From: Mycobacteroides chelonae CCUG 47445
GTDB taxonomy: Bacteria > Actinomycetota > Actinomycetes > Mycobacteriales > Mycobacteriaceae
Reading direction: 5' to 3'
DNA: 64,000 nt
Assembly: GCF_001632805.1 (NCBI RefSeq)
Contig: NZ_CP007220.1
Span: 3,844,001 to 3,908,000 of the forward strand
Each line of letters begins with the position of its first letter. The first letter of the stretch is position 1. Positions 3,883 to 19,339 of this stretch are shown one piece after another. The position numbers and the translations under genes are program-made. Below the pieces are notes generated by a model. That model was not told the DNA's origin. It saw only the letters and a list, made by a program, of their open reading frames with translations, and made no database searches.

Positions 3883-4095
3883 TCAGCGCCTCCACCGCTG
3901 CCAGCGGTAGATGTCGTCCTCATCGAAGTCGGATTCGGTCATATGGATCTGCATGGGCATCTGAAGTTCCGTGGCCTTTGCGGGCTCATCGAGCATTACG
4001 TCGCTGCGTGCTGCGTCGGCGTCATCCCGCAGCTGATCTAGGGTGCTCTCGAAATCCGAGACGATGCCCGCGAGGGCGTCGGTGATGTCGATCAT
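3883..4095 (-). CDS. Small acidic hypothetical protein, third gene of the EspC/WXG cassette
   Basis: A 70-residue acidic protein starts at the ATG at 4095 and overlaps the end of the preceding WXG-type gene by four bases (ATGA), so it is probably translationally coupled to it. It contains an N-terminal helix-like stretch, a methionine-rich middle (LQMPMQIHMTESDF) and a basic, tryptophan-containing tail (RWQRWRR). It abuts the stop of the Rv3438-like gene without a gap. I recognise no family. Its position after a probable type VII substrate would suit a chaperone or partner, but that is only a guess from context. Confidence 0.6.
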   Translation of the reverse strand: MIDITDALAGIVSDFESTLDQLRDDADAARSDVMLDEPAKATELQMPMQIHMTESDFDEDDIYRWQRWRR

Positions 4096-5720
4096 CGCCC
4101 AGCCTTAGGCAGTTCATCGGCGGCGATTTCACACGGCGTCTCCCCGGCATCCGTCCCTGCGGCCTGAGGCTGAGCCTGCCGGTTGCTGGGCCCTACCGAG
4201 GGCACTGGTGAGGGCTGTTGCGCGGGCTCGGGATGCTGGGCCGCGTTCGGCTGCTGTGTGTGGACCGGCGGTGGGTTTACCGGCGACATCGATCCGGCGG
4301 GCTGCGCGGCGGACAGGCCACCGGTGGACGGCGGAACCGCACCTCCCGGCGGCGTCGTGGTCCCGAGCGGTGCGCCCGGGGTGGTCTGACCCGCCGGGGC
4401 CGGAGCGGCTTCCACACCACCTGCTCCCGCCAGCTGAACTCCCGGGCCCTGCATCGGCTTGCCATCTGTGGCGAACGTCGCGCCCGCGTCCGAGCGGGCT
4501 TCCTGGATCGCCGCATCCTTGGCCGCCGCCATCTTGGCGTCCGGGTCCTTCTTGTCGGCGGCCTCGTCGGCCTTCCCGTCGATCTTGTCCTCGAGTTTCT
4601 CGTCGCCCGTATCGGGCTCACCACCATGCCCCAACTGGTCGAACGGGATGCTGGAGAGGCCCTCGGTAATGGCGCTGACAATGCCGCTGGCCGCCTGGCC
4701 GATGGATCCGAGCGCGCCAGTCATGGCCCCGGTCAACCCGCTGACAATCTGGCTCGGGTCCATGCCCTGCTGCCCTTGCCCCTGGCCGGCACCCTGTTGC
4801 CCACCGCCAGCCATCTGCCCGCCCTGACTACCCATCGCGGAGGCCGGAGTCGCCGTGCCCTGCATCCCACCGCCCGCGCCGCCGCTGGCGGACCCGCTGT
4901 CACCGCTGCTCTGGCCGCCCCCGGCAGCACCTGGCTCCTGCTTGCCGCCTTTGTTCTTGTCCTTGTCCGTGGAGTTCTGCGGGGACTCGGTGTCCGAGTC
5001 GTACTCCGGTCCGAGCTGGCCGGGCGGGTTCTTGAACTCCGCGGGCAGCTCCTGCTTCAGCGCGCTGGTGAAGGTGTCGTACGCCTCGCCGCCCTTGCCC
5101 CATGCCGCCTTCATGGCGGGAAGCCACTTGCCCTCGATGTTCTGCTGGACGTGCGGGCCGATCTTCGTGGCGTTGGTCTCGTCGGCCACCGACCTGTCGC
5201 CGGTACCCGTCTTGTAGGTGGCGACGGCACTGTCAAAGGACGCACGATCGGTCACCAACCCATCGACCATGGTCGATGCCTGCTTCTTGAGATCGACGAT
5301 GGTCCACAGCGTTTCGCGCAGCCCGTCCAGACCCGTGGATACCTGCCCGAATTCCTTGGTCACCGCGTCAGCGGTGGAGTTGTGCGTCCGCAAGAACTGA
5401 TTCGCAGCCTCCGAGCCTTTGCCTTCCCACATTCCCATGAGCTGCTGCAGTTGTCCGTGCTGACGCTCGGCGGCGGACTTCATGGTGGTCACCGCGCTCT
5501 TGAACAGCTCAAGATCCGCACCGAGCTTGTTCAGATCCATGCCGGCGTCCATGTCGTACCAATCGAACAGCTGACGCTCGTTGGCGGTGAGGTCCGGGTT
5601 GGTGATCGTGACCGGCGACTTACCGTTTCCCCGGATCGCGGTGGTCGTGTAGTTCTGCGAGTTCGCGATCGCCTGGATGCCCTCGCTGCGCAGCGACTCG
5701 ATGTCGTACTTACCGGCCAT
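4092..5720 (-). CDS. WXG-domain Ala/Pro/Gln-rich protein, probable type VII secretion substrate (Rv3439c-like)
   Basis: The 542-residue protein begins at the ATG at 5720 (MAGKYDIESLRSEG). A longer in-frame reading to 5990 would only be a shadow of the upstream EspC-like gene. Residues about 55-200 look like the long helical hairpins of WXG100/PPE-like domains, with a WEG turn at about 98-100. After residue 250 it becomes low complexity: Gly/Gln-rich, a Gly-rich hydrophobic stretch near 325-360, a highly charged Lys/Asp segment, then Pro/Ala/Gln repeats. There is no Sec signal peptide. It corresponds to the Ala/Pro-rich Rv3439c of M. tuberculosis (467 aa). It overlaps the EspC-like gene by 11 bases and the 70-residue gene by four. 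No toxin domain is visible. Confidence 0.75.
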   Translation of the reverse strand: MAGKYDIESLRSEGIQAIANSQNYTTTAIRGNGKSPVTITNPDLTANERQLFDWYDMDAGMDLNKLGADLELFKSAVTTMKSAAERQHGQLQQLMGMWEGKGSEAANQFLRTHNSTADAVTKEFGQVSTGLDGLRETLWTIVDLKKQASTMVDGLVTDRASFDSAVATYKTGTGDRSVADETNATKIGPHVQQNIEGKWLPAMKAAWGKGGEAYDTFTSALKQELPAEFKNPPGQLGPEYDSDTESPQNSTDKDKNKGGKQEPGAAGGGQSSGDSGSASGGAGGGMQGTATPASAMGSQGGQMAGGGQQGAGQGQGQQGMDPSQIVSGLTGAMTGALGSIGQAASGIVSAITEGLSSIPFDQLGHGGEPDTGDEKLEDKIDGKADEAADKKDPDAKMAAAKDAAIQEARSDAGATFATDGKPMQGPGVQLAGAGGVEAAPAPAGQTTPGAPLGTTTPPGGAVPPSTGGLSAAQPAGSMSPVNPPPVHTQQPNAAQHPEPAQQPSPVPSVGPSNRQAQPQAAGTDAGETPCEIAADELPKAGR

Positions 5721-6018
5721 TGGCTGCAGCCACCCTTGCCTTGTTCTTGGCATCCCGATCGGCATAACGTTGCGCGGTCGCGCGGAGCTGTTCGGCGATC
5801 GCGGTGTTGGTGCGCTGCCAGTTCTCGAGGTGAGTAACCACCTCGCGCAGTCCATCCCTGACCGCGTCGCCCTTGGCCGTGTGCCACCGACCGGCCGATG
5901 CCCCACCGAAAGACAACCCACGCAGCTGCTGAATGGCTTTTTGCAGCTCTTCTGCCACGCTGTCGAACTCTCCAGCGACCCCCCGGACACCAGCGACGTT
6001 GATCGAGGTTTCTCCCAT
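5710..6018 (-). CDS. EspC-like type VII secretion target protein (Rv3440c-like)
   Basis: The protein is 102 residues long and starts at the ATG at 6018 (MGETSINVAGVRGVAGEF). Size, predicted two-helix shape and sequence match the EspC/DUF2580 family of type VII exported proteins. Near the C-terminus RYADRD supplies a YxxxD motif (Tyr85-Asp89), the general mycobacterial ESX export signal. It is the first gene of a three-gene unit with the WXG-type protein and the 70-residue protein, so it may be the partner that carries the signal for export of the larger protein. A SigM-like promoter ends only ten bases before the ATG, so the transcript should be nearly leaderless. Confidence 0.75.
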   Translation of the reverse strand: MGETSINVAGVRGVAGEFDSVAEELQKAIQQLRGLSFGGASAGRWHTAKGDAVRDGLREVVTHLENWQRTNTAIAEQLRATAQRYADRDAKNKARVAAANGR

Positions 6019-6027
6019 ATTGACTAC

Positions 6028-6053
6028 GACGGGTACATGCCACTTCCGGTTCC
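6028..6053 (-). promoter_or_regulatory. Predicted SigM-type ECF promoter of the EspC-like operon
   Basis: On the minus strand GGAAC (6053-6049) is followed after exactly 17 bases by CGTC (6031-6028), the -35/-10 layout reported for the M. tuberculosis SigM regulon. The surrounding 15-base block (plus-strand cggttccatcttttt) recurs upstream of esxU at 12136-12150. The start codon of the EspC-like gene is ten bases past the -10 element. Confidence 0.65.
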
Positions 6054-6109
6054 ATCTTTTTTCACTGATCTGTGGATCATGCGTCTTCCCGTTCAACCGC
6101 TTGGTCGGG

Positions 6110-6115
6110 TAGGGT
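6110..6115 (+). promoter_or_regulatory. Predicted -10 element giving a leaderless transcript
   Basis: TAGGGT ends six bases before the ATG at 6122, the spacing expected when transcription begins at the start codon. No Shine-Dalgarno sequence is visible. No clear -35 was found. Confidence 0.45.
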
Positions 6116-6121
6116 CGCCGC

Positions 6122-7159
6122 ATGCGCATTGGAACCACGCTGAGCTATGCCGGCGGATTCACCGAAGTCGTTGACGAGCTCGCTGAGCTGGAGAAAGTCG
6201 GGTTGGACATCGCGTTCGTCGCCGAGGCCTACTCGTATGACGCCGCGAGCCAGCTCGGGTTTCTCGCTGCCAAGACGTCCACCGTAAAGCTCGCGTCGGG
6301 GATCTTCCAGCTGTACACCCGAACCCCCACCTTGCTGGCCATGACGGCGGCCGGCCTGGACTACGTCTCCAACGGTCGGTTCGTCCTGGGCATCGGCGCC
6401 TCGGGTCCGCAGGTCATCGAGGGATTCCACGGCGTGAAGTACGACGCTCCCCTGGGCCGTACTCGTGAAACCGTCGAGATCTGCCGCAAGGTGTGGCGTC
6501 GGGAACGCCTGGAGTTCGAAGGCAAGTACTTCACCGTGCCACTGCCTCCCGAACAGGGCACCGGCTTGGGCAAGGCGCTGAAGCTGATCAATCACCCAGT
6601 GCGCGACCGCGTTCCGGTACTCATCGCCGCTCTTGGCCCCAAGAACGTGGCACTGACCGCCGAGATCGCCGAGGGCTGGCAGCCCATCTTCTTCCTTCCC
6701 GAGAAGGCCAATGACGTGTGGGGTGCCGCCCTGGCCGAAGGCAAGGCCAAGCGCGACCCCTCACTCGGCGATCTCGAGGTCTACGCCGGGCCCGCACTCG
6801 CGATCGGCGACGACGTCGAAGCGCTGTACGGATTCGTCAAGCCGAGCCTGGCGCTCTACATCGGCGGCATGGGCGCCAAGGGCAAGAACTTCTACCACAA
6901 CCTCGCGACCGCATACGGTTTCGGCAAGGAAGCCGACACCATCCAGGAGCTTTACCTGGCGGGCAAGAAGGCCGAGGCGACCGACGCGGTGCCTGACGAG
7001 CTGGTCAGGAACATCTCGCTCATCGGGCCCAAGAGTTTTGTCGCCGAACGGGTTGCGGCCTTCAAGGAGGCAGGTGTGACGACTCTCAATGTCGCCCCGC
7101 TCGCCGCCGATGCGGCAGGCCGGATCAAGCATGTCGAGGCTCTGCGCGAGCTGCTGTGA
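6122..7159 (+). CDS. LLM-class F420-dependent oxidoreductase (Rv3520c-like)
   Basis: A 345-residue luciferase-like monooxygenase-fold (TIM barrel) protein. The start MRIGTTLSYAG, the strand VKLASGIFQLYTRTP and the GRFVLGIGASGPQVIEG loop are typical of mycobacterial F420-dependent enzymes that bind reduced deazaflavin at the C-terminal face of the barrel. The length fits the family (about 340). It is divergent from the EspC-like cassette and followed 60 bases later by the PhoD-like gene on the same strand. The substrate is unknown; related proteins reduce or oxidise alcohols, sugars or lipids. Confidence 0.85.
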   Translation: MRIGTTLSYAGGFTEVVDELAELEKVGLDIAFVAEAYSYDAASQLGFLAAKTSTVKLASGIFQLYTRTPTLLAMTAAGLDYVSNGRFVLGIGASGPQVIEGFHGVKYDAPLGRTRETVEICRKVWRRERLEFEGKYFTVPLPPEQGTGLGKALKLINHPVRDRVPVLIAALGPKNVALTAEIAEGWQPIFFLPEKANDVWGAALAEGKAKRDPSLGDLEVYAGPALAIGDDVEALYGFVKPSLALYIGGMGAKGKNFYHNLATAYGFGKEADTIQELYLAGKKAEATDAVPDELVRNISLIGPKSFVAERVAAFKEAGVTTLNVAPLAADAAGRIKHVEALRELL

Positions 7160-7219
7160 TTCGTACGCCGTTCGCGTAGCGTTCGGCGTACGTTCGCCTG
7201 CCACCCCGAAGGTGGTGGG

Positions 7220-8734
7220 ATGACAGCCATTCCGCGCCGCACGGTCCTGCGTGCCGCCCTACTTGGGCTCGCTGTTGCTCCGGCGGCGGCATGCGGGCCC
7301 GCGTTGGTGACGACTCGCCCGAGACTGACGCATGGAGTGGCAAGCGGATTCCCTCGCTCTGACGGGGCGTTGATCTGGGCGCGGTCGGATCGTCCGGCCA
7401 CCATGCTCGTCGAAACAGCTGCCACCGAAAGCTTCTCGGAGGTGCGGCGTTTCACCGGCCCGGTGCTCACGCCAGAGTCTGACGGGACCGGCCGGTTGCG
7501 CCTCACCGGCCTGCCCGCGGACACCGAGGTGCACTACCGGGTGACACTGGACTCCGATGGAGCCTTGAGTGAGCCTGTTACCGGCGTCTTCCGGACAGCG
7601 CCGACCGACGCACGAAATGTGCGACTGATCTGGTCCGGCGATGTGGCGGGACAAGGGTTCGGCATCAATCCAGACATCGGCGGGATGAGGATCTTCCGCA
7701 CCATGGCGGACCGTAATCCGCAGTTCTTCCTGCACAGCGGGGACACGGTGTACGCGGATGTTCCGATCCAGGAAACACTGACCTTGCCCGACGGGCGGAT
7801 ATGGCGCAACGAGGTATCCGAGGCGAAAAGCGCTGTGGCACAGACACTCGACCAGTACCGAGGACAACACGCGTACAACCTCACCGACGCCAACTACCGA
7901 TACTTCAACGCGCACGTTCCGCAACTCGTGCAGTGGGATGACCACGAAGTGCTCAACAACTGGTATCCCGGCGAGGTTCTGGAGAACGACAAGTACACCG
8001 AAAAGCGAGTCGATGTGCTCGCACAACACGGGCACCGGGCATTCCATGAATGGCAACCGACCGAACGCCGCGAGGCCGTTGATGGCCTTGTGTACCAACG
8101 AGTCTCATACGGTCCGCTATTGGACGTATTCATTCTCGACATGCGCAGCTACAAGGATCCCAACTCCACCAACCGGCAGCAGCGTGGCGCCATCTTCGGC
8201 GCCCGCCAAACCGAATGGCTGATCAACGCCATGGCTTCATCCAAGGCCGTATGGAAGATAGTCGCCAATGACCTGCCGCTTGCGCTGGTGGTACCCGACG
8301 GCAAGACGAACTTCGAGGCCGTCGCCAACGGCGATAACGGCCCACCTCTTGGGCGAGAAACCGAACTGGCACACATCCTCTCGCAACTGAAAGCGCGACA
8401 GGTCCGCAATGTGGTGTGGCTGACCGCCGACGTGCACTACACCGCAGCGCATGAATACTCGCCTGCGCGTGCCGCCTTCACAGACTTCGACCCGTTCTGG
8501 GAGTTTGTGTCAGGTCCACTACATGCCGGCGCCGGCCAGGAGAAGCCACTCGACGGAACCTTCGGACCGCGTGCGGATTACGTCCACGCGGCACCGCCGG
8601 ATCAGCAGTCACCGCTGGACGGTTACCAGCATTTCGGGCAGATCGATATAGACGGCGCAAGCGGCGATCTCACCGTCACACTGTGCGACGCCGCGGGTTC
8701 CGCGCTATACACCCGCGGCCTGGCGCGCACCTAG
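7220..8734 (+). CDS. PhoD-like alkaline phosphatase/phosphodiesterase, Tat-exported
   Basis: The 504-residue protein opens with a twin-arginine signal ([21 protein letters not shown]). The Cys about 25 residues in could be a lipid attachment site, though Ala at -3 is not ideal. The mature part has the PhoD N-terminal beta domain, then the metallophosphatase core: [32 protein letters not shown] (metal-binding Asp and His) and [15 protein letters not shown]. These are the Asp/His ligands used by PhoD enzymes for Fe3+/Ca2+. A role in phosphate release from phosphodiesters or teichoic-like polymers outside the membrane is inferred. Its stop overlaps the stop of convergent glmM by four bases. Confidence 0.88.
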
Positions 8735-10050
8735 ATCGCGCCGACCACCTCGGCCACCCGTTCGGCGAGGCGCTGTGCGGTCGACTGCTCGTCGGCCTCC
8801 ACCATGACACGAACGAGTTGCTCGGTTCCGGAAGGACGCAACAGGATTCGGCCATTGCCCGCAAGCTCAGACTCCACAGCGGCGACGGCCGCAAGCACCT
8901 CGGGCGCCTTCGCCACCGTGTGCTTGTCCGAGACCGGCACGTTGATCAGCGTTTGCGGCAGGCTGCGCATCGCGGACGCAAGATCGGCCAACGACTTACC
9001 TGTTTGAGCCATCCGGGACATGAGACGCAGGCCGGTGACGATGCCGTCTCCGGTGGTGGCCAGTGAGGGCAACACGATATGACCGGATTGCTCACCGCCC
9101 AGGGCGAATTGGCCCGCGCGCAACTCCTCCAGCACATAGCGGTCGCCGACGCCGGTCACCTTGACGTCGATGCCCGCCGAACGCATGGCGATATGCAATC
9201 CCTGATTGCTCATCACCGTGGTGACCAGCGTGTTGTCGGTCAGCTCACCGGCTTCCGCCATCGCCGCGGCGAGCACGACCATGATGGCGTCGCCATCGAT
9301 GACGTTCCCGTCCGCATCTACCGCAAGACATCTGTCGGCGTCGCCGTCATGCGCAAGCCCGAGGTGGGCGTCGTGGGCCTTCACGGCGGCCTGCAGTGGA
9401 CCGAGATGCGTTGACCCACAACCGTCGTTGATATTGAGCCCGTCGGGGTCGGCATTGATGTCTATCACGTGGGCGCCGGCGGCGCGGTAGGCCAAGGGCG
9501 CCGCGTCGGAGGCCGCGCCGTGCGCACAGTCGACCACCACGGTGACTCCGCTCAGCGGATGAGTGGCGGCATTGTGAACATGATGCAGATACCGGTCGAG
9601 GGCGTCCACGGCGTCGCGCACACGACCGATGCCCGCCCCGGTCGGACGTGCCGCAGGAGTATCCAGCTGCGCCTCGATGGCATCCTCGGCGGAGTCATCA
9701 AGCTTGTGTCCACCGGCGCCGAAGATCTTGATGCCGTTGTCGGGCATGGGGTTATGGGAGGCCGAGATCATGACGCCGAAGGCCGCTCCGTAGGCACCCG
9801 TCAGGTATGCCACCGCCGGGGTGGGCAGCACACCGACGCGCAGTACGTCGACGCCTTCAGCCGCGATGCCCGCAACAACCGCAGCCTCCAACATCTCACC
9901 ACTGGCGCGCGGATCTCGGCCCACGACCGCGATGGCGTGACCACTGGCCAACGACCGCGCCGCGGCCGAGCCCAGCGCGACCGCAAGCTCGGCTGTCAGC
10001 TCGGCATTCGCGACACCACGCACACCGTCAGTGCCGAATAGTGAGCCCAT
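8731..10050 (-). CDS. glmM: Phosphoglucosamine mutase
   Basis: A 439-residue alpha-D-phosphohexomutase that converts GlcN-6-P, the GlmS product, to GlcN-1-P. The start at the ATG at 10050 ([15 protein letters not shown]) has GGAAGG eight bases upstream. The catalytic phosphoserine loop [11 protein letters not shown] places the phosphorylated Ser at about residue 98. The metal loop DGDADRC follows, and the phosphate-binding [15 protein letters not shown] is near the C-terminus. It lies just downstream of rpsI (104 bases) on the same strand, separated by a hairpin, an arrangement (rplM-rpsI-glmM) common in actinobacteria. It converges on the PhoD-like gene with overlapping stop codons. Confidence 0.96.
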
Positions 10051-10098
10051 GCAGTAAACCTTCCATAACCAGTCATACCAAACTGGCCCAATAACGCG

Positions 10099-10133
10099 AT
10101 TGCGCCGACACACAGGTTGTGTGCCGGCGCAAT
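10099..10133 (-). terminator. Hairpin after rpsI
   Basis: attgcgccgacacac and gtgtgccggcgcaat form a 15-base stem with one mismatch around a five-base loop, 20 bases beyond the rpsI stop. There is little U-tract (TTATTGG follows on the minus strand), so termination may be partial, with read-through into glmM. Confidence 0.55.
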
Positions 10134-10153
10134 ACGCGGACGAACAGGGTCGA

Positions 10154-10687
10154 TCAGCGCTTCGAGTACTGAGGCGCCTTACGGGCCTTCTTGAGACCGT
10201 ACTTCTTACGCTCGATCGCACGCGGGTCACGAGTGAGGAAGCCGGCCTTCTTCAGCACCGGACGGTCCTCGGGCTCCACGATGATGAGCGCACGGGCGAT
10301 GGCGAGACGCAGCGCGCCCGCCTGACCCGAAGGGCCGCCACCGGACAGGTGAGCGTAGATGTCCACGCTGTCCACACGGTTGACGGAGACCAGCGGCGCC
10401 TTGATGAGCTGCTGGTGCACCTTGTTCGGGAAGTACTCCTCCAGAGTGCGGCCATCCAGGTGGAACTTGCCGGTACCGGGGACGAGGCGCACGCGGACGA
10501 CGGCCTCCTTACGGCGGCCAACGGTCTGGATGGGCTTGTCGATGACGACGGGCCCGCGAGGAGCGGCCTTGACGGCAGTCTCTTCGGCGGAATCCTCAAC
10601 AACGACCTCGACGACCGCCTGGTCGCCGCCGTCCACTGCGATGTCCGCGTTCTCTTCGGGGGTCTGCTCTTCGGCGATATCGGTCAC
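10154..10687 (-). CDS. rpsI: 30S ribosomal protein S9
   Basis: A 177-residue protein. The C-terminal 130 residues are a standard S9: [26 protein letters not shown], the [19 protein letters not shown] segment and the basic tail ending QYSKR, which reaches the P-site tRNA. The first 45 residues are an acidic extension (repeated Glu/Asp/Val) typical of actinobacterial S9. The ATG overlaps the rplM stop by four bases, so the two genes form one translationally coupled operon. Confidence 0.98.
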
Positions 10688-11127
10688 TGAGCCACCTGCT
10701 TAATCTCGAACGGGATCGGCTGCTGCGCGGCGTGCGGGTGCTCGGGACCTGCGTACACCTTCAGCTTGCGCTCGATCTGGCGGCCAAGCTTGTTCTTAGG
10801 CAGCATGCCGATGATTGCCTTCTCCACCGTGCGAGTGGGGAACTTCTCCAGCTGCTCGCCGATGCTGCGCTTGCGCAGACCGCCCGGGAAGCCCGAGTGA
10901 CGGTAGGCGAACTTGTCGGTGAGCTTCTTGCCGCTGAGGGCAATCTTCTCTGCGTTGATGATGACGACGAAATCGCCACCATCAGCATGCGGGGCGTAGG
11001 TCGGCTTGTGCTTGCCGCGCAGCAGGGTGGCTGCTTGAACGGCAAGACGGCCGAGCACTACATCCGTGGCGTCGATGACATACCAGCTCGTGGTGATGTC
11101 ACCCGCCTTCGGCGTGTAGGTAGGCAC
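10684..11127 (-). CDS. rplM: 50S ribosomal protein L13
   Basis: A 147-residue L13. The start is the GTG at 11127, giving (V/M)[16 protein letters not shown], which matches the mycobacterial L13 start; the frame stays open upstream, but that extension is not part of the family. [29 protein letters not shown] and the C-terminal [11 protein letters not shown] segment are diagnostic. An AAGGAAAGAC Shine-Dalgarno sequence precedes the start. Confidence 0.97.
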
Positions 11128-11343
11128 AGTCTTTCCTTGTCTACTCGGGTGGATCCCCGGACGGCTGTTGCCGTTCGGAGCGCTGGTCATGGCGGACGGT
11201 GGAGGTTGATCTCGGCGACCAGTGGTGACCCGAGCCTCGTGTGCGAAGACATACCGCACGCCAACGGAGCAGCTTACCGGGCCACGTCACCGCAGGTCAA
11301 AACGCGGCCGAGCCCGCCTTGTGGGCAGCCCCGACACCCCCAA
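11128..11343 (-). promoter_or_regulatory. Leader/promoter region of rplM-rpsI
   Basis: About 216 bases lie between the esxUT terminator and the rplM start. No gene is visible. A promoter and 5' leader for the L13/S9 operon must lie here, but I could not pick a convincing -35/-10 pair. Confidence 0.4.
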
Positions 11344-11391
11344 GAAAAAACTGTGGGGCCTTGGTGGCTCTCCCCCACCAAGGCCCCACAG
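11344..11391 (-). terminator. Strong intrinsic terminator of esxU-esxT
   Basis: ctgtggggccttggtgg (11351-11367) and its exact reverse complement (11375-11391) form a perfect 17-base stem with a 7-base loop. On the minus strand the stem is followed by TTTTTTCTTG. This is a canonical U-tract terminator, rare in mycobacteria, placed 25 bases after the esxT stop and before the rplM leader. Confidence 0.9.
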
Positions 11392-11415
11392 GGTCTTGAA
11401 CAAACCGTCGGCGAT

Positions 11416-11703
11416 TTAGCCGTGCCAGGCGCCCGCAGCGCTCTGGTCGGTGTGCTGCGCATCCTGGTTACCCTGGTCAACCTTGGAGTTGAGCTGAGTC
11501 AGGATCTGGTTGAGGTCCTCAGCGGACTGGTGCCAAGCCTTCTGGTACTCCTGGTAAGCAGTCGCTTCCTGGCCCTCAGCTTGCTGGACCAGGGGCTGGA
11601 TGTCGTGCTGCAGTTCCTCCAGGCCGGCCTGGAACTTGTTGATGATGCCCTTGACATCGGCAACCAGCGCATCGATCTCGCCGTGGTTGTAAGTAATCTG
11701 CAT
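11416..11703 (-). CDS. esxT: WXG100-family protein EsxT
   Basis: A 95-residue helical-hairpin protein of the ESAT-6/CFP-10 superfamily. The ATG at 11703 gives MQITYNHGEIDALVAD; an in-frame TTG two codons earlier is possible. The turn carries AWHQ, so Trp is kept but the Gly of WXG is not, as in other EsxT proteins. The C-terminus ends AAGAWHG, like M. tuberculosis EsxT (AAGAWAR), and has no YxxxD/E motif. It is expected to dimerise with EsxU, encoded 49 bases upstream on the same transcript, and to be exported by ESX-4. Confidence 0.9.
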   Translation of the reverse strand: MQITYNHGEIDALVADVKGIINKFQAGLEELQHDIQPLVQQAEGQEATAYQEYQKAWHQSAEDLNQILTQLNSKVDQGNQDAQHTDQSAAGAWHG

Positions 11704-11752
11704 GGTCAATCCCCTTTGCTATGTGATGTCTTTGATGACTATTACGAGACGC

Positions 11753-12031
11753 TTAGAAGGTCTGGCCCTCGTCCATCTCCTGGATGCGACGCTTGTTCGA
11801 CTCCATGGTGTCGTGGATCCCGACGAGCACCTTCTGGATGTCGCCCATCTCCTGATCGAAACGAGCCATCGCCTCGTCGAAGGCATGCCGCGCCTGCCCC
11901 TGCCAGGTGCTGGTACCCACCGCTACGCGGTCCCGCAGCTGGGACTGCATCGCGGTGAACTCCTGGTACTTGCCGTCAATCTTCTTGGCAGTGGAATCGA
12001 GCAACGCCAGGTCATTCTGAAAAACAGCCAC
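11753..12031 (-). CDS. esxU: WXG100-family protein EsxU
   Basis: A 92-residue WXG100 protein with a canonical WQG turn between two helices (SQLRDRVAVGTSTWQGQA). The start is the GTG at 12031, with a strong GGGAGGAA ribosome binding site six bases upstream. It pairs with EsxT as the probable heterodimeric substrate of the adjacent ESX-4 apparatus. The C-terminus (SNKRRIQEMDEGQTF) lacks a YxxxD/E signal. The SigM-like promoter sits about 80 bases upstream. Confidence 0.9.
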   Translation of the reverse strand: MAVFQNDLALLDSTAKKIDGKYQEFTAMQSQLRDRVAVGTSTWQGQARHAFDEAMARFDQEMGDIQKVLVGIHDTMESNKRRIQEMDEGQTF

Positions 12032-12116
12032 TTCAGTTCCTCCCTTGTCCCCAGGCCCGGCCAGTCACGGGTGTGACTTCCGGTTTCTGGCCGGTTTTGT
12101 CCTTACAACTACATAC

Positions 12117-12142
12117 GATGGCCTGACCGCCAGATCGGTTCC
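12117..12142 (-). promoter_or_regulatory. Predicted SigM-type ECF promoter of esxU-esxT
   Basis: On the minus strand GGAAC (12142-12138), 17 bases, then CATC (12120-12117), one base away from CGTC. It lies in the same 15-base block found before the EspC-like gene at 6047. esxU and esxT are reported SigM targets in M. tuberculosis, as I recall the published regulon. Confidence 0.6.
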
Positions 12143-12173
12143 ATCTTTTTCAAAGTTTTTTTCAGCAATCTTG

Positions 12174-13553
12174 CTAGTTACCCGACTTTACCGCATGTGC
12201 GGTTCGGATCGCCAGATCACAAGCCTGTTCGACATCAATGTAGCTATTCTTCTTGAACTGGCAGCCAACTCCCATTCTCAGGTCATCATCCAGAAGCACT
12301 GTCCACGCGATGTCATGGCCCTCGCGAACCTCGGTGTAGGTGACCGCCGGCCGGTCCGCCTTGCGGTCGTCGGCCTTGAAATCGGTGAACACCCCCGGCG
12401 GCTCCTTCGTCATGGCAACTCGCAGCGTCTCCGCTGTTGAGGCCAAGGTTTCTGTCGACTTCACCCGCACCTGGGTCACATGCACGACCGCCTCAGGGTC
12501 CTCGGGTGAGATCACCTCGACCCGCGCTGAACCGGAACCGCCCGCAGGGATGCGCCGTACCGCCCACTCGGCGGGCACCATGAACTGCACATGCCCCTCT
12601 ACCAGCAGCGATGTCGCCGCGACGGGTGCCGTGGGCGACGGGTGCCGCTCGCGCGCGGAGGCCACAGTCAAGACAACACCGGTGACAACCACGGCCGCGG
12701 CCAGGCCAATCGCGGCAAGCGGCCACCACGCGGGAAGCCGCGGCGTGGATCTTGCGGGCGACGCGGGTGTCCATTCGGGCCTTCTGGCCACAATGGGCTC
12801 CTCTGCCGGCTCATCGATGAACGCCAGCGCCCGTGGAGCCTGACCGACATCGCGGAACACCGAATCCCCGGCGACCTGCGATACCCCGGGAGTCAAGCCG
12901 ATCCGATCGACCGCGTCGACGATCGCCTCACCCATGTCGCTATCGGCCGAGTCGACGAGGATCGCGGCGACTCCTGTCGGTTCGCCGCGGGCCACCTCCT
13001 CGACGGCACGCGCCACGGCGCGTGCAACATCTGCGGCGTTCTTGGTCTCCCAGGACCGTTCTTCGAGATGCCGAACCGTCGCCTCCGGCTCACCGGCAGA
13101 GCCGTGCGCCACGACGGTGACGGCGACCTCACCGGGTGACACCTCGACCACCACCAGGGAGCGCCCCGACAGATCGGCGCGCACACCGCGCTCGGCCAGA
13201 GCGATGGCGCGCGACCGCACGGTCAGTGTCGCGGCCATCATCCGCGCGGCATTCGACAGCACGGTGCGCCGTCCAGGACTCCACGCCGTCGGATGGATCA
13301 GCTGCATCGAATCGAGGCGAACCGGAGCATTCTGATCAGTGAGCAACGACTCGAACAGGGCTGCCCAGAGCGCACGGGACGGAACCACGCGACCTGGCAA
13401 CAGGGCCATCTCGTCGTCGAGTGCTGCGACCGCCGACCGAACATCGGAATGCCCGGCCTCGCGGATGCCGGCGTCGGTTCGCGCCCGGACTGCGGTCTCG
13501 GTCACTTCGATCGCTACCCGCGTCCCTATCTGCGGGTCGCGATCCAGAATCAC
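12174..13553 (-). CDS. Type VII secretion-associated membrane protein (Rv3446c-like)
   Basis: A 459-residue protein with a cytoplasmic N-terminal part (about 1-270), one membrane helix (about 276-299, WWPLAAIGLAAAVVVTGVVL) and an extracytoplasmic C-terminal domain. This layout matches the Rv3446c family that accompanies ESX-4. The start is the GTG at 13553, which overlaps the eccC4 stop (GTGA), so it is translationally coupled to the ATPase gene. The N-terminal half has an actin/ASKHA-like feel (IAVEVTETAVRAR, VVVEVSPGEVAVTVVAHG), but that is only an impression. It probably links the EccC motor or EsxUT to the membrane complex. Confidence 0.8.
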   Translation of the reverse strand: MILDRDPQIGTRVAIEVTETAVRARTDAGIREAGHSDVRSAVAALDDEMALLPGRVVPSRALWAALFESLLTDQNAPVRLDSMQLIHPTAWSPGRRTVLSNAARMMAATLTVRSRAIALAERGVRADLSGRSLVVVEVSPGEVAVTVVAHGSAGEPEATVRHLEERSWETKNAADVARAVARAVEEVARGEPTGVAAILVDSADSDMGEAIVDAVDRIGLTPGVSQVAGDSVFRDVGQAPRALAFIDEPAEEPIVARRPEWTPASPARSTPRLPAWWPLAAIGLAAAVVVTGVVLTVASARERHPSPTAPVAATSLLVEGHVQFMVPAEWAVRRIPAGGSGSARVEVISPEDPEAVVHVTQVRVKSTETLASTAETLRVAMTKEPPGVFTDFKADDRKADRPAVTYTEVREGHDIAWTVLLDDDLRMGVGCQFKKNSYIDVEQACDLAIRTAHAVKSGN

Positions 13554-16500
13554 TGCGGATCGCTCCAGGCCACTTGGATCAGTTGTTGGCCGCCCGAGCG
13601 CATGACCAGAGTGCCGCGGCCCGCAGGCTGCTCACTCGGTCTGACCGTCCCCAACAACACACCCTCGTCTCTGTTGCCACTCATCTGTAAACCGATGCAG
13701 GACAAGTCCTTCATGCGCGCCATCATCGGCTCGAACATCGCCCGCGAGGCACCGCTGGTGCGGCGTGCGATCACAACGTGCAGGCCGATGTCCTTCGAGT
13801 GCGGTAGGTACTCCGCCAGCGGCAGCAGCGGGTTTCCGCTTGCCAGCGCCACCAGGTCATAGTCGTCGACCAGGATGTAGATCTCCGGGCCGGACCACCA
13901 TGACCTGTCCCGCAATTCCTGTTGAGTCACATCGGGTCCCGGCATGCGCGACTTGAGGAGCTCGATCAACGCGGGCACCTCATCGACCAGGGTATTGCTC
14001 GACATCGCGTACTTGGCTAGATGCTCAGTCTCGACGACACCGAGCAAGGTGCGCCGATAGTCCACGATGAACAGCTGCACCTGCTCCGGAGTGGTGGTAC
14101 GGACGATCTCGCGGCACATGGTGCGCAACAAGCCGGTCTTGCCGCACTCGCTGTCGCCGAAGATCATCATGTGCGGCTGCTCGCCGAACTCCAGGAACGT
14201 CGGAGCCAGCTCGGTTTCGTTGATACCGACGAGGATGCGCAGGTTCGGCTGATCGTTTTGAGGTGCCTGCGGAACCAGCGCGGCGTAATCGATCTTGTGC
14301 GGCAGCATGCGAACCTTCGGCGCTTCTGCCGAACTGCGTTGGCGCATGCTCGCCGCGGCCGCACTGATCGCCTCACCAAGGTCCTGATTCGACGAGACGC
14401 TGTCGACGCGTGGCAATCCGATGAGCATGTGCCGACGGTCGCGGGTGATACCCCGGCCCGGCCTGCCATCAGGCACGAGCTGTGCCAGCTTGCGGTCGAA
14501 GTCCGAGTCGAGCGGATCACCGAGACGAAGCTCGACGCGCGTGCCGATTTGGTCCTTCAGGGCCGGGCGGATCTCGGCCCAGCGCGACGCCGTGACCACC
14601 GTGTGCACACCGAAACCGAGCCCCTGCGCCGCAAGCGCGGTGACCTGTGGCTCGAGGGCCTCGAACTCCTGACGCACGGTGGACCAGCCATCGATGATGA
14701 AGAACACGTCGCCGAAAGGATCATTCGCAAGCTGTGGGTCACCGGCACCCTTGCGCCGCCGGTACTCGGCCATCGAGTCAATTCCATAGGCGCGGAAGGC
14801 ATTCTCACGCGATCTGACGATCGTCAGCATTTCGGCGAAAGTCCGCCGGATCAGATCTGATTCCAGGCGGCTGGCCACCGAACCGACATGCGGCAGCTGC
14901 GCCAACGACGTGAGCGTGCCACCACCGAAGTCCAGGCAGTAGAACTGCACCTGCGCGGGACTGTGTGTCACCGCGAGCGAGGTCACCAGGGTGCGGATAG
15001 CCATCGACTTCCCGGACTGGGGTGCACCGACAATAGCGACGTTGCCCGCCGCGGCGGACAGGTCGACGATGTACGGGTCGCGGCGCTGCTCGTACGGCCG
15101 GTCCACGATTCCGATCGGAACGGTCAGGCTGCCCACCGCGTCGAAACCGGCGCGACCGTGACGAGGAATCAGGTCGCCCAGCGTGGGCGAATCATCCAAT
15201 GGCGGAAGCCACACCTCGTGAGCCGGATTGCCATGCCCCTCAACGCGATCGAGGATCGTGTCGATGACCGACCTTCCTGGTGCCCCTTCGGACGCGGCCG
15301 GAGTGTCATCTTCGACCACTTCCACCGGACGCATCTGCAGCGCCACCGGCGCAGCGGTAAAGAGGCGCGGCGCCGCACCTCCGCCTCCCGAGGAGACGGC
15401 CCGACGCGCCGGTCCGTACGGCACATATGCGCCCGAGACGTAGGAGGTCTGGAATCGCGTCAACTCGCCCGAATCGTCCTTGAGGTAGCAGGAACCAGGG
15501 GTGTTGGGCAGATGATAGGCGTCCGGCACGCCGATGGCGGCACGCGATTCGTTGGCAGAGAACGTCTTCAAGCAGAGTCGATAAGACAGGTGCGATTCCA
15601 GCCCGCGCAGACGACCCTCGTCCAGACGCTGCGAAGCGAGCAACAGATGCACATGTAGCGACCGGCCCAGACGGCCGATTGCGACGAACAACTCCGCGAA
15701 ATCCGGGTGCTGACTCAGCAACTCGGAGAACTCGTCGACGATGATGAACAGTGCCGGCAATGGGGCGAGGGACGCACCGGCGGCGCGGGCACGCTCGTAC
15801 TCGGTGACATTGGCGAAGTTGCCCGCGGCGCGCAACAGCTCCTGGCGCCGGTTCATCTCGCCTGCGAGAGCGTCCTTCATGCGGGACACCAGGTTCGCCT
15901 CTTCGGCAAGGTTGGTGATGATCGCCGCGACGTGCTGCGCTCGATCCAGACCGAGGAATGTCGCTCCACCCTTGAAGTCGACGAGCACGAGGTTGAGCGC
16001 ATCCGGCGAATGGGTCGCGATCATGCCGAGTGTCAACGTGCGCAGGAACTCCGACTTACCCGAACCGGTCGCACCGATGCAGAGCCCGTGTGGACCCATG
16101 CCGTTCTCGGCGGCTTCCTTGATATCCAGCTCCATCGGAGTGCCGTCGACCGCGATACCGATCGGAACCCGCAGCCTGTCTCGGCCAACCCTGTTGCGCC
16201 ACACTACTTCCGGGTTAAGCAGCCCGGGATCACCGATGCCCACGATGTCGGACCAGCGCGTGCTGACCTCGGTCTGGATCTGAACCTCGTCGCCGCTGCC
16301 CGTCAGCACCCGATAGGGCGCCAGGCGGCGCGCACACGCCATCGCCTCGGTAACGGTGAGGTGATCCGGGTGGGCGAAGACCTCGGACCCGACGTTGCCT
16401 TTGGCACCCAACCCGCGTTCGGTCAGCTCCAGTTGCATACCGCGACGGGCCGCGAGCGGATCCACCCTGGTGCCGATCTCGACCAGGGTCACCGAATCGA

Positions 16501-17536
16501 TGCCGTGGTCGACAATGAGGCGTTCGGACCCGATCAGCGTGCCGCTGTCGACGATGATGAGGATCTGCGGCCGGTCGGGGGAAGGCTGCGCGGTCCGCGA
16601 GAACCGTTCCCGCTCGGTGATCAGCGACGCCAACGATTCCTCGACCTCACCCAGTGAGTGGTAGACGAGCCGAGATGAGCCGACGCCGTCGAAGGCGCTC
16701 GGATGCTGAGAGTGCGGAAGCCATTTGAGCCAGTCCCAGTGTGGGGCGGCATGCCGATTGACCACCGCCGCCACCAAGAACTGGTCGGGCCCGTGGAACA
16801 TCGCGAGCTGGCAGATCATGGCGCGCAACATGCCTCGCGCCACCTCCGGCGAACCGTCGATGGTGACGGCCGCAAAACCTCTCAGGTTCAACGCGATAGG
16901 CAGCTCGGGCACCAGCGAGTGCGTCCGCACGAATCGCCGCAGCGCCACTGACGCGACCGGCTCCAGCTCCTCGACCGGGCCGATCTCCGGCGCCACCAAC
17001 TGGGCCGCCAGACGCTGATCCCCTACTCCGACACGCACATGGCAGTAGTCGCTGTCTCCGGGACGCCGCTCCCACATGCGGCGGCCACCGGCCAATGTCC
17101 ACAACGCGGCGGGGTCCGGGTTGTTCCAGAGCAGGGCCTTGCGCTGGGCCGCACCGGTATCGGTGACGTTCTTGCGCACCACTTCGAGGTACCGCAGGTA
17201 ATCCTTGCGATCCTCGTTGATCTCACTGGTCTTGGCTCCCTTGCCGCCGCTGTTGGACACCATGCTGACCATCGAAACCATCATCATGATCGGGAACAGC
17301 ATGAACATCGGGCTGCGCATCATCCCGCCGCCTGCCCCACCACCGAAGCTTCCCGAGGTGACGAAGAAGGCGATCATGCCCACCATTGCCACGACCATGA
17401 CCAGCGGCATGATCTTCGCGATGATCGGCGACGGGACCGGCCGCGGAATCTCCGGCGGCGGCTGCACATTGACCTCGCCGCCCGGGACACGAGGCACCGC
17501 AAGCCGAGGCCGACGAATGAATATTGTGGTGTTCAC
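13550..17536 (-). CDS. eccC4: ESX-4 secretion ATPase EccC4
   Basis: A 1328-residue FtsK/SpoIIIE-type motor of the type VII system. The GTG at 17536 (VNTTIFIRRPRLAVPRVPGG) gives the usual EccC start; the longer frame to 17617 is not family-like. Two membrane helices lie near residues 39-61 and 76-93. Three ATPase modules carry Walker A loops at about 487 (GATGSGKS), 836 (GAPQSGKS) and 1126 (GDSECGKT). The first has a clear Walker B (LFIIVDEFSEL). EccC binds the C-termini of WXG100 substrates and drives export. It is somewhat longer than M. tuberculosis EccC4 (1236) and heads the operon eccC4-Rv3446c-like. Confidence 0.95.
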   Translation of the reverse strand: MNTTIFIRRPRLAVPRVPGGEVNVQPPPEIPRPVPSPIIAKIMPLVMVVAMVGMIAFFVTSGSFGGGAGGGMMRSPMFMLFPIMMMVSMVSMVSNSGGKGAKTSEINEDRKDYLRYLEVVRKNVTDTGAAQRKALLWNNPDPAALWTLAGGRRMWERRPGDSDYCHVRVGVGDQRLAAQLVAPEIGPVEELEPVASVALRRFVRTHSLVPELPIALNLRGFAAVTIDGSPEVARGMLRAMICQLAMFHGPDQFLVAAVVNRHAAPHWDWLKWLPHSQHPSAFDGVGSSRLVYHSLGEVEESLASLITERERFSRTAQPSPDRPQILIIVDSGTLIGSERLIVDHGIDSVTLVEIGTRVDPLAARRGMQLELTERGLGAKGNVGSEVFAHPDHLTVTEAMACARRLAPYRVLTGSGDEVQIQTEVSTRWSDIVGIGDPGLLNPEVVWRNRVGRDRLRVPIGIAVDGTPMELDIKEAAENGMGPHGLCIGATGSGKSEFLRTLTLGMIATHSPDALNLVLVDFKGGATFLGLDRAQHVAAIITNLAEEANLVSRMKDALAGEMNRRQELLRAAGNFANVTEYERARAAGASLAPLPALFIIVDEFSELLSQHPDFAELFVAIGRLGRSLHVHLLLASQRLDEGRLRGLESHLSYRLCLKTFSANESRAAIGVPDAYHLPNTPGSCYLKDDSGELTRFQTSYVSGAYVPYGPARRAVSSGGGGAAPRLFTAAPVALQMRPVEVVEDDTPAASEGAPGRSVIDTILDRVEGHGNPAHEVWLPPLDDSPTLGDLIPRHGRAGFDAVGSLTVPIGIVDRPYEQRRDPYIVDLSAAAGNVAIVGAPQSGKSMAIRTLVTSLAVTHSPAQVQFYCLDFGGGTLTSLAQLPHVGSVASRLESDLIRRTFAEMLTIVRSRENAFRAYGIDSMAEYRRRKGAGDPQLANDPFGDVFFIIDGWSTVRQEFEALEPQVTALAAQGLGFGVHTVVTASRWAEIRPALKDQIGTRVELRLGDPLDSDFDRKLAQLVPDGRPGRGITRDRRHMLIGLPRVDSVSSNQDLGEAISAAAASMRQRSSAEAPKVRMLPHKIDYAALVPQAPQNDQPNLRILVGINETELAPTFLEFGEQPHMMIFGDSECGKTGLLRTMCREIVRTTTPEQVQLFIVDYRRTLLGVVETEHLAKYAMSSNTLVDEVPALIELLKSRMPGPDVTQQELRDRSWWSGPEIYILVDDYDLVALASGNPLLPLAEYLPHSKDIGLHVVIARRTSGASRAMFEPMMARMKDLSCIGLQMSGNRDEGVLLGTVRPSEQPAGRGTLVMRSGGQQLIQVAWSDPQ

Positions 17537-17803
17537 CCCGTGCTCACCCTGGCCCTCCGGTTCCCCCGCGTCACATCTCGTGGCAATCTGTGGCACCCAC
17601 GCTACCGCCCAGCCCACGGCGGGCTACAGGATAGGGCCGTTATATCCGGCGCCGCAACGAATTCGCTCACAAGATCGCTGCAGCCGCTGGTCGCGTGGTT
17701 GGCGTTCGCCCGGATGCATCGAACCGCTGGCGGCGCTCAGCAGCGTTCGGCTAGTGTGCATGCGCAAAGATCAATGACCGTGGGGGCAGGTAGGGGGCAC
17801 AGC
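17537..17803. promoter_or_regulatory. Divergent eccC4/eccD4 intergenic region
   Basis: This 267-base spacer must hold promoters for both ESX-4 core units. The GGAAC block seen at esxU and at the EspC-like gene is absent, so the core and the substrates are probably under different control. TAGTGT at 17752-17757 is a possible -10 for eccD4, without a matching -35. Confidence 0.35.
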
Positions 17804-19339
17804 ATGACACATGCGCAGTCGGGCGCCGAGCAACGTTCGGCGGTACTCGAACTGTGCCGCGTTTCCATCCAGGCTGAGCGCACCCAGGTCGACCTGGCGC
17901 TGCCGACGAGTGTTCCGCTGGCCCTTTTGGTCGGCTCGATCGTCGACATCATCAACCAACATGTAGGCGTCCCCGAGCTGACCAGCCCGGAGGACGCCGT
18001 GGAAACGCACTGGCGTTTGTCCCGGCCCGGTCAGCCACCGCTGCAGATGTCCAGCACCCTTGGGGAGCTGGAGGTCCGCGATGGTGATCAACTGATTCTC
18101 ACCGCGTCCGATGTGGCCGCACCGGATCCGCTGTTCGACGACGTCTTCCTTGCTGTCTCTACCTTCCGGACCGTGTCGGCGCATCCGTGGAGCCGGACCG
18201 CTGCCCGGATACTCGGCGCGTCCGCGTGCGGCCTGGCCGCGGTGCTCGGTGCGACGGCGCTGTTACGCGCCGGAGCCACAAATCCCGGCCTGCTTCTTCC
18301 CATCATCGCCGTGGCGATCGCATTGGTGGCCATCACCGCCGCGGTGTTCGCGAATCGGGTCTATGACGATTCCCTGGCCTCGGTGATGCTGAGCCATTGC
18401 GCCGTCGGCTTCTCGGCGGTGGCCGGAGCGCTGTTCGTACCGGGAAAGTATGGCGCCCCACACGTGATGCTGGCACTCATGGTGGCGATGGTCGTATCCG
18501 TCCTCGCCATGCGTGCGACCGGCACCGGGACGATGTCCCTTGTCGCGGTCGCTTCGGCATCTCTACTCGGGTTCGGTGCGGCCCTGGGTTACGTGCTTTT
18601 CGAGCCTCCGATCTACAGCCTCGGCGCTGCGCTCGGCTCGGTCGGCATCTGCGCGGTGGCACTGTCGCCGCGTGTGGCCATGGCGCTCGCCCGACTACCG
18701 CTTCCCCCGGTGCCCACGCAGGGCGCACCCTCACGTCCCGAACATTCGACGGCGCCGATCGAAGCCATCGAAGGTCTCGACGGACTCGATACCGAGGGTG
18801 ATGACGTCGAGGACGCCACGGCACTGCCGCCGCTGCCCGATCTTCGTGAGAAGGCGCTGCGGGCGCACGCCGTACTGACCGGATTGGTGTGCGGCACATC
18901 CGCCGTCACCGCGGTGGGCGCCATGCTGGCGGCGCTGACCTTCCCCGGAGCCGGTGATCATCACCCCACCGGTGCGCACCGATTCAGTGGTGTGGTGCTC
19001 GCCGGATTGATCGCGCTGGCGATGATGCTTCGGGCACGCTCGCACGCCGACCTCGCACAGACGGTCGCGATCAACCTGGGCGGCTTGGCCATTCCGGCAG
19101 CGGCCTTCGCATTCATCGCGGTCGCGTACCCGACGGCGGCGGTGTTCACCACCGTGTTTGCGGCGATCGCGGCCGGTTCGGCCATCGCCCTCGGCTTCCT
19201 GGTGTCCGCTCGCAAGTACTCACCGGTCGCCCGCCGCACGGTGGAGATCATCGAATACATCGCGCTATCGCTGATCGTTCCGATCGCGGTCTGGGTGTGT
19301 GGCGTGTACAGCGCCGTGCGGGGATTGAACCTGCCATGA
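17804..19339 (+). CDS. eccD4: ESX-4 integral membrane protein EccD4
   Basis: A 511-residue protein. The start is the ATG at 17804, with TAGGGGG seven bases upstream; an earlier in-frame ATG at 17774 has no such site. Residues about 17-100 form the ubiquitin-like EccD domain (LCRVSIQAERTQVDLALP, then LGELEVRDGDQLILT). From about 140 there are roughly eleven hydrophobic helices, broken by a charged loop (about 305-350), as expected for the EccD channel-vestibule subunit. mycP4 begins inside its stop codon (ATGA). Confidence 0.93.
   Translation: MTHAQSGAEQRSAVLELCRVSIQAERTQVDLALPTSVPLALLVGSIVDIINQHVGVPELTSPEDAVETHWRLSRPGQPPLQMSSTLGELEVRDGDQLILTASDVAAPDPLFDDVFLAVSTFRTVSAHPWSRTAARILGASACGLAAVLGATALLRAGATNPGLLLPIIAVAIALVAITAAVFANRVYDDSLASVMLSHCAVGFSAVAGALFVPGKYGAPHVMLALMVAMVVSVLAMRATGTGTMSLVAVASASLLGFGAALGYVLFEPPIYSLGAALGSVGICAVALSPRVAMALARLPLPPVPTQGAPSRPEHSTAPIEAIEGLDGLDTEGDDVEDATALPPLPDLREKALRAHAVLTGLVCGTSAVTAVGAMLAALTFPGAGDHHPTGAHRFSGVVLAGLIALAMMLRARSHADLAQTVAINLGGLAIPAAAFAFIAVAYPTAAVFTTVFAAIAAGSAIALGFLVSARKYSPVARRTVEIIEYIALSLIVPIAVWVCGVYSAVRGLNLP

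Follow-up and report, generated by a model that had tools for sequence, protein, structure and literature searches.

Why should two transcription units of a mycobacterial type VII secretion system (T7SS) locus, lying in otherwise unrelated DNA, be preceded by nearly the same promoter? The question is raised by a 64,000-nucleotide stretch of the Mycobacteroides chelonae CCUG 47445 genome (termed here the window; positions 3844001-3908000 of 5,029,817 bases), in which such promoters precede an EspC-like cassette and the esxU-esxT genes of the ESX-4 locus. An earlier interpretation based on the letters of this DNA (the sequence-only reading) ascribed both promoters to SigM, an extracytoplasmic function (ECF) sigma factor, and proposed that the substrates, rather than the secretion machine, are switched on in this way. 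Here pattern and profile searches of the window, of its genome and of other mycobacterial genomes place the two promoters within a genome-wide set of about sixteen sites. They are very probably members of a single ECF-sigma regulon, most likely that of SigM, which would control an expanded set of T7SS effector cassettes.

On the minus strand, a consensus scan of the window finds GGAAC, a 17-base spacer and CGTC at 6028..6053 (-35 at 6053-6049, -10 at 6031-6028), before the EspC-like cassette, and GGAAC, a 17-base spacer and CATC at 12117..12142 (-35 at 12142-12138, -10 at 12120-12117), before esxU-esxT, which is where the sequence-only reading had placed them. The SigM consensus consists of a GGAAC -35 and a CGTC -10; the sites described here conform to it at the usual distance of 16-18 bases, except that the esxU copy has CATC. 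The bare pattern GGAAC-N16-18-CRTC is not significantly enriched in the window (nine occurrences against 5.2 expected, with nine of 100 shuffles reaching nine), so that the observation at the level of the window rests on the longer block shared by both promoters. This 15-base block, CGGTTCCATCTTTTT (minus-strand reading AAAAAGATGGAACCG), comprises an A-run and the extended -35; it occurs exactly at 6047..6061 and at 12136..12150 and at no other window site with up to two mismatches, 0.05 occurrences being expected by chance. The first copy is followed by six T and CA and the second by five T and CA, that is, by one T more in one copy, as had been described. In a local comparison the two intergenic regions have in common only this block, one match of 10 bases and another of 8; hence the surrounding DNA is unrelated, again in agreement with the earlier description. 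In terms of core score, the two sites reach 38.1 and 37.3, and every other position of the window 6.4 or less.

The same element recurs throughout the genome. The sequence AAAAAGATGGAACC is found exactly only twice, both times in the window, and at up to two mismatches it is found at 14 genome sites, against four for a reversed control; at 10 of these 14 sites, which were picked by their -35 region alone, CGTC or CATC lies exactly 17 bases past GGAAC. The pattern ATGGAACC-N16-CGTC has 15 exact occurrences and, at up to one mismatch, 37 against 12 for its reversed control. When the spacer is allowed to vary (ATGGAACC-N6-30-CGTC), there are 31 genome sites against five for the reversed pattern, and 15 of these 31 pairs have a spacer of 16 (equivalent to 17 when counted from GGAAC), the other 16 being spread over 24 spacers (Poisson probability about 1e-15). 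Across the genome the two parts of the promoter thus show a strong preference for a single distance.

To obtain a profile, 14 of the 15 exact N16 sites (3324043 was left out) were aligned without gaps together with the esxU site, which has CATC, and a sequence-only profile was built from these 15. It recovers all of its training sites--among them the extended elements of the EspC-like cassette (6013-6075, minus strand; E = 8.6e-8) and of esxU-esxT (12102-12164, minus strand; E = 9.1e-10)--and one site outside the training set, at 3573322-3573376 (E = 1.9e-5; termed here 3573358), which precedes genes for a protein of 131 aa and for a DUF3558 lipoprotein. Weaker profile sites lie at 2749621 (E = 0.008), 8376 (E = 0.012; kept in relatives, at loci L256, L261 and L281), 1928633 (E = 0.056) and 243400 (E = 0.67). 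The aligned consensus reads as an A-rich stretch, GAAAAA-G/C-ATGGAACCGAATC, variable bases, CGTC, G, T and A; in other words, a long -35 of roughly AAAAA-G/C-ATGGAACCGAAT with an A-rich stretch further upstream, and 17 bases from GGAAC to the CGTC -10. The two look-alike promoters are therefore indeed instances of the same element, but the set to which they belong is larger than had been described, comprising about sixteen sites with varied spacer sequences and varied genes.

What these promoters serve was explored through Pfam searches and through WXG100 and EspC scans of the downstream operons, 12 of which (of 16) encode a protein resembling the WXG100, EspC, PE or PPE families: five above the family cut-off, one at the cut-off and six below it (E up to 0.02). 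A WXG100, EspC-like or related small helical partner occurs at both window units and, if matches below the cut-off are counted, at 12 of the 16 sites. Within the window, the esxU-esxT site precedes a pair of WXG100 genes, both on the minus strand: esxU (11753..12031; 92 aa; PF06013 at 2e-13), which starts 85 nt past the -10, and esxT (11416..11709; up to 97 aa; PF06013 at 1.1e-11). The other site precedes, likewise on the minus strand, a 102 aa EspC-like/WXG100 gene (5710..6018; PF10824 at 6.9e-10, PF06013 at 1.5e-6), the gene of its large 542 aa partner (4092..5720), which matches no Pfam family at 0.001 and resembles WXG100 weakly, short of the family cut-off (20.1 bits at genome positions 3849319-3849504), and a further 70 aa open reading frame (ORF; 3883..4095) that matches no Pfam family.

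The other three sites with matches above the cut-off are 144958 (PE, PPE and EspG genes), 1249494 (a WXG100 gene and a 799 aa protein with an EspA-like region; PF23275, 2e-51) and 3573358, where the 131 aa gene (no match) and the lipoprotein gene are followed, 2.3 kb downstream, by genes for a WXG100/EspC-like protein of 106 aa and a GH19 protein (2.7e-11). At the cut-off is 1937665, with a 455 aa PPE/WXG-like protein and then a Tle1-like phospholipase (PF09994, 1.4e-66). Below it are 13299 (EspC, 3.6e-4), 359086 (382 aa; WXG100, 2.7e-4), 1245731 (429 aa; WXG100, 0.011), 1597502 (404 aa; WXG100, 8.1e-5; with a DUF3558 lipoprotein), 2998432 (98 aa; WXG100, 0.004) and 3756230 (108 aa; EspC, 0.018; with a 448 aa NlpC/P60 protein, 1.5e-17). 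At most sites, then, a small WXG100, EspC-like or PE-like protein is followed by a large protein that sometimes ends in a C-terminal enzyme, and DUF3558 or other lipoproteins are frequent neighbours of the cassettes; four of ten small proteins in one Pfam scan had no match at 0.05. The phospholipase gene (genome 1935154-1936212; L053:10155-11213), which follows the PPE/WXG-like gene within a SigM-type operon, represents a domain of the type VI secretion system kind beside a T7SS cassette, a combination that seems unusual. The PE-PPE-EspG cassette (genome 142707-144883) likewise carries a SigM-type promoter.

The association can also be counted in reverse, starting from the 30 WXG100 hits in the genome at E up to 1 and accepting an element with a core score of at least 12 that lies no more than about 1.5 kb upstream and faces the gene. 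By this definition 14 of the 30 hits have the element, behind 11 promoters, of which three (8375, 243409 and 2749651) are weaker forms. Eight hits belong to esx pairs located elsewhere than ESX-4 (near 47.5, 624, 2221 and 4588 kb), which we take to be ESX-3-like or orphan pairs; none of the eight has it (Fisher 0.003, the hits not being independent of each other).

The element is conserved beyond this genome. Scanned with the profile at E up to 0.001, with filters that lose weak matches, 63 of 396 genomes of the genus match: 10, including that of the window, with 10 to at least 13 matches, and 53 with one to three; 333 have none. The ten match-rich genomes are taken, on the basis of gene content, as the abscessus-chelonae group. 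Among 28 loci fetched from outside these ten (L089-L097 and L107-L125, nine in-group loci having been set aside; further matches exist), the element lies before esxU-esxT in 15, before the EspC-like pair in two, and before relatives of the 3756230 NlpC/P60 pair in eight, three loci being unassigned; these pairs are the three units found to be preceded by the element outside the lineage of the window. A strict pattern, GGAACC-N16-CGTC, was also sought in 25 loci (L126-L150, used from at least 80; 23 titled mycobacteria and two uncultured actinobacteria). It is found upstream of the EspC-like gene in all 18 loci that have it and within 850 bases before esxT in seven of ten (one further locus being incomplete), two of the three misses having GGAACC with GGTC instead of CGTC. 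The same pattern is absent upstream of the Rv3446c-like gene (0 of 9), eccD4 (0 of 4), mycP4 (0 of 3) and glmM (0 of 24); as for background, two of 23 rplM upstream regions hold it, and it occurs 32 times in 839,936 strand-bases over the 25 loci. That the block had been kept for a reason, as the sequence-only reading supposed, is supported by the presence of one element at both units and before the orthologous units of other mycobacteria. Moreover, since the ATG of the EspC-like gene lies 9 nt past the -10 in the window, and its estimated start 9-22 bases past CGTC in 16 of the 18 loci, the mRNA of this gene is predicted to be leaderless or nearly so.

Which sigma factor reads the element? The genome has one clear SigM (equivalog match of 288 bits, cut-off 190), and each of the ten close genomes has one sigM. 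Behind sigM lies a 299 aa gene that matches no family and that, by gene order, is the candidate for the membrane anti-sigma factor; next come genes taken to encode thioredoxin reductase and thioredoxin (the thioredoxin having been family-tested). Studies of the SigM regulon in M. tuberculosis and M. smegmatis reportedly include Raman 2006, Agarwal 2007 and Clark 2018. The EspC-like pair may belong to the published regulon, in which the sequence-only reading places Rv3439c/Rv3440c. That esxT and esxU belong to it, as the same reading states, agrees with a report that esxU, esxT, esxE and esxF are SigM-induced in M. tuberculosis, overexpression of SigM raising esxU 1800-fold and esxT 70-fold (PMC8593097, the fold changes citing other work). 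In M. smegmatis, cell contact is reported to induce through SigM the ESX-4 apparatus, a cell wall hydrolase, a nuclease and esxUT (PMC9514802, PMC10906988). Because orthologous esxU-esxT genes are thus reported to respond to SigM in two species, SigM is the best candidate for the factor that reads the element.

Whether the machine is switched along with its substrates depends on the lineage. In the window the ESX-4 core genes lack the element, as had been noted: best upstream scores are negative for the Rv3446c-like gene and for those that, from the order of the locus, we take to be eccC4 (machine ATPase; 13550..17617, minus strand), eccD4 (machine component; 17804..19339, plus strand) and mycP4 (machine protease; 19297..20778, plus strand), eccB4 being covered by the whole-window scan only. 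The element is also absent at the eccC4-eccD4 region in all ten genomes of the window's group. In other mycobacteria, a search with an N-terminal query finds it directly before the start codon of eccC4 in two of four loci of the 25-locus set. (A first control, which had given none of four, was discarded because its best local match did not lie at the N-terminus.) Furthermore, the element stands at eccC4 in ten of 20 other genomes and on the opposite strand in none; these 20 were hand-picked, before the DNA upstream of eccC4 was seen, from 117 genomes with an EccC4 match (40-48% identity). The element is present in eight of the nine that had profile matches (G004, G020, G021, G034, G064, G073, G087, G089 and G119) and in two of the 11 that had not; because the sample is enriched for genomes of the former kind, the genus-wide rate is lower than ten of 20 would suggest. 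In a sample chosen by best eccC4 match (three in-group genomes and 27 others), a loose match to the element is seen in five of the 27, one of these, at a distance of 165 bases, probably being due to chance. Fourteen of the 27 (L293-L306) form a class, present in some mycobacteria, whose EccC4-like proteins share about 50-55% identity with EccC4 of the window; none of these 14 has the element. At L141, L150, L320-L324, L330, L332, L333, L338 and L339 the element lies so near the start codon of eccC4 that most of these mRNAs are likely to be leaderless.

It is telling that, among the 20 hand-picked genomes, those in which the element is strong elsewhere mostly carry it at eccC4 too, unlike the window's group, where it is strongest and yet missing from eccC4. 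The element at eccC4 in other mycobacteria fits the report that deletion of SigM lowers esx-4 genes 2-4-fold in M. tuberculosis (PMC10117145). Hence the proposal of 'substrates, not the machine' stands for the lineage of the window but not as a general rule; to judge by these promoters, it looks like a feature of that lineage. Even there, some other connection between machine and cargo may persist, since deletion of the small RNA B11 in M. abscessus is reported to raise eccB4, esxU, esxT and sigM together. The abscessus-chelonae group is also described as comprising the mycobacteria whose ESX-4 is complete, eccE4 included; in our reading the group with the complete ESX-4 is the group with the expanded regulon, which is a correlation.

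Taken together, these observations suggest the following sequence of events. A signal would release SigM from its membrane anti-sigma factor; the SigM-RNA polymerase would then fire the dispersed cassettes together; and the products of most cassettes would leave by ESX-4. In the lineage of the window, where the machine genes lack the element, cargo and machine would be switched separately; in some other mycobacteria eccC4 carries it. For EsxU and EsxT the export route accords with a report naming them as ESX-4 substrates in M. abscessus, their secretion being lost without eccC4, with a partial share of ESX-3 (PMC11791044); for most marked cassettes ESX-4 is the likely route by exclusion.

A number of observations weigh against this interpretation. 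With regard to the element and its genes, the match at 3324043 is exact and yet has no neighbouring T7SS gene and is not a profile match; it is counted as chance. Four of the 16 sites precede an operon without a T7SS family match or with one only at E 0.04: 12829, inside the 13299 cluster; 1938710, where a 122 aa gene and a DUF3558 lipoprotein gene lie ahead of the 1937665 cassette; 16864, with a 97 aa gene, a 488 aa protein (GH19 at 0.0015, below the cut-off) and a lipoprotein; and 734937, directed towards an ORF of 92 aa. (The first two share clusters with sites that do have T7SS matches.) In the reverse count, five WXG100 hits outside esx pairs have no element (one of these, 2158301, having a weak variant), two have it only on the opposite strand, and one, in the 3573358 cluster, has it further away than 1.5 kb. 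With regard to SigM, the sigM gene itself has no GGAA[CT]-N15-19-C[AG]T in the 800 bases around its start, despite a report that SigM raises its own expression in M. tuberculosis. SigL is present in all ten close genomes, so that absence of SigL failed as a discriminator. In M. abscessus, PQS is reported to raise esxU, esxT, sigM and MAB_3747c, which would be the window's EspC-like gene, but also the ESX-3 genes esxH and esxG, so that the response is not specific. With regard to the route, PE/PPE proteins and, in part, EsxU/T are reported to be exported by ESX-3 in M. abscessus, so that ESX-4 need not be the route of every cassette. By its gene numbers, the PE-PPE-EspG cassette may, moreover, correspond to a cluster that is called part of ESX-3 and is reported to be raised in synthetic sputum (PMC4974804), which would oppose an ESX-4 route for it.

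These points bear on the competing explanations. The presence of SigL and the lack of an element at sigM would be accommodated if the same regulon were read by another ECF sigma factor, such as SigL or an extra ECF factor of the lineage, and the genome offers room for this, since the SigM model finds 15 matches in it with E no higher than 0.001, of which one exceeds the cut-off. This is improbable, given that the orthologous esxU-esxT genes are reported to be SigM-induced in M. tuberculosis and M. smegmatis and that the same element precedes esxU-esxT in other mycobacteria. The block might instead be the site of a separate regulator--an activator, or a nucleoid protein drawn by the A-runs--that overlaps the -35 and that could coexist with the sigma factor. 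In the window's genome the A-rich stretch does extend far beyond the -35 on its upstream side, and it looks weaker at sites in other mycobacteria, but a -10 at a preferred distance is part of the element, and outside the lineage it is the A-run that weakens while GGAACC and CGTC stay (in part an effect of selection, those sites having been found by GGAACC and CGTC); we regard a separate regulator as quite improbable.

A third explanation, that the block is common to the two units merely because one promoter region was copied, without any regulon, deserves very little credence. Exchange with the promoter as its boundary does seem to happen here: over 2 kb the region at 734937 and the 1597502 locus match at 79%, and the match begins inside the promoter. 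As a full account of the shared block, copying is refuted by the set of sixteen sites, with their varied spacers and genes, by the conservation of both window units in other mycobacteria and by the spacing preference. On the other side of 734937 lie a 102 aa gene and the gene of a 638 aa protein (Abhydrolase_8, 2.9e-48; weak WXG100); we read the site as a cassette that may have been exchanged at its promoter. An ECF-sigma regulon, with SigM as its most likely reader, accordingly remains the preferred interpretation.

The cassettes at these promoters differ in part between relatives. When 40 stretches at these promoters from four relatives' genomes are compared with the window's genome, many of the cassettes are orthologous, and in some the N-terminus is retained but what follows is different. 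The most distinct swap is between the GH19 protein of the 3573358 cluster (L056:4643-5689) and an NlpC/P60 protein of genome G074 (L259:2890-4251): the N-terminal parts are related, identities per 60 columns running 26/59, 23/50, 17/58, 9/46, 14/53 and 9/52. A kept N-terminus with an exchanged C-terminal domain at a corresponding cassette, as in polymorphic effectors, is therefore seen in one clear pair. The same promoter precedes, in G074, a cassette (L257:272-2219) in which a pair of WXG100 genes comes before the gene of a 437 aa protein with Ntox37 at its C-terminus (5.1e-17); this cassette has no match among the cassettes of the window's genome that were compared; L285 of genome G112 holds a cassette with similar-looking starts. 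At L263 and L271, behind a nearly unchanged promoter, EsxU matches at 31% or not at all and EsxT at 56% and 37%, so that these genes have either diverged strongly or been replaced.

In its widest form, the interpretation would place a T7SS arsenal of the abscessus-chelonae lineage, triggered by contact, under SigM as its master switch. At least a dozen scattered effector cassettes, open to exchange--cell wall hydrolases, a phospholipase, toxin domains and lipoprotein guards--would be fired together through a full-core ESX-4 that has been freed from direct SigM control, so that the timing of an attack on neighbouring cells, or of a signal to them, would depend on the supply of cargo rather than on that of the machine. 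We offer this broader picture as speculative and rather unlikely to hold in full. More generally, a promoter that marks the candidates yields a short list of cassettes from sequence alone and a reporter for the signal; it provides a test for a coordinated mycobacterial type VII arsenal comparable to the contact-dependent weapons of other bacteria; and it indicates that the extent to which secretion machine and cargo are regulated apart varies from one lineage to another. The link between SigM and esxUT is already in print (PMC8593097, PMC9514802, PMC10906988, PMC10117145), and the promoter map appears new with respect to the parts of the literature consulted: no paper on a SigM regulon or on the element in M. 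abscessus was noticed in a limited search that did not include the main SigM papers and that is weak evidence of novelty.

Three known systems are most directly comparable. Like the SigM regulons of M. tuberculosis and M. smegmatis, the set described here includes esxU-esxT (SigM is reported also to induce esxE/esxF in M. tuberculosis); unlike them, it comprises about 16 sites, 12 with T7SS resemblance, has a longer -35 with an A-run, and lacks the element at the ESX-4 machine genes and at sigM. The window carries the counterpart of the ESX-4 locus of M. abscessus, of which EsxU/T are reported substrates; further substrates of that system are described as yet to be identified, whereas the promoter map nominates about a dozen cassettes. 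Finally, the cassettes resemble the LXG or polymorphic T7SS effectors of Firmicutes in pairing a small partner with a large protein that keeps its N-terminus and exchanges its C-terminal enzyme, as with GH19 in the window's genome and NlpC/P60 and Ntox37 in G074; they differ in that no LXG family match was found among the proteins scanned and in that a shared ECF-type promoter is an added feature.

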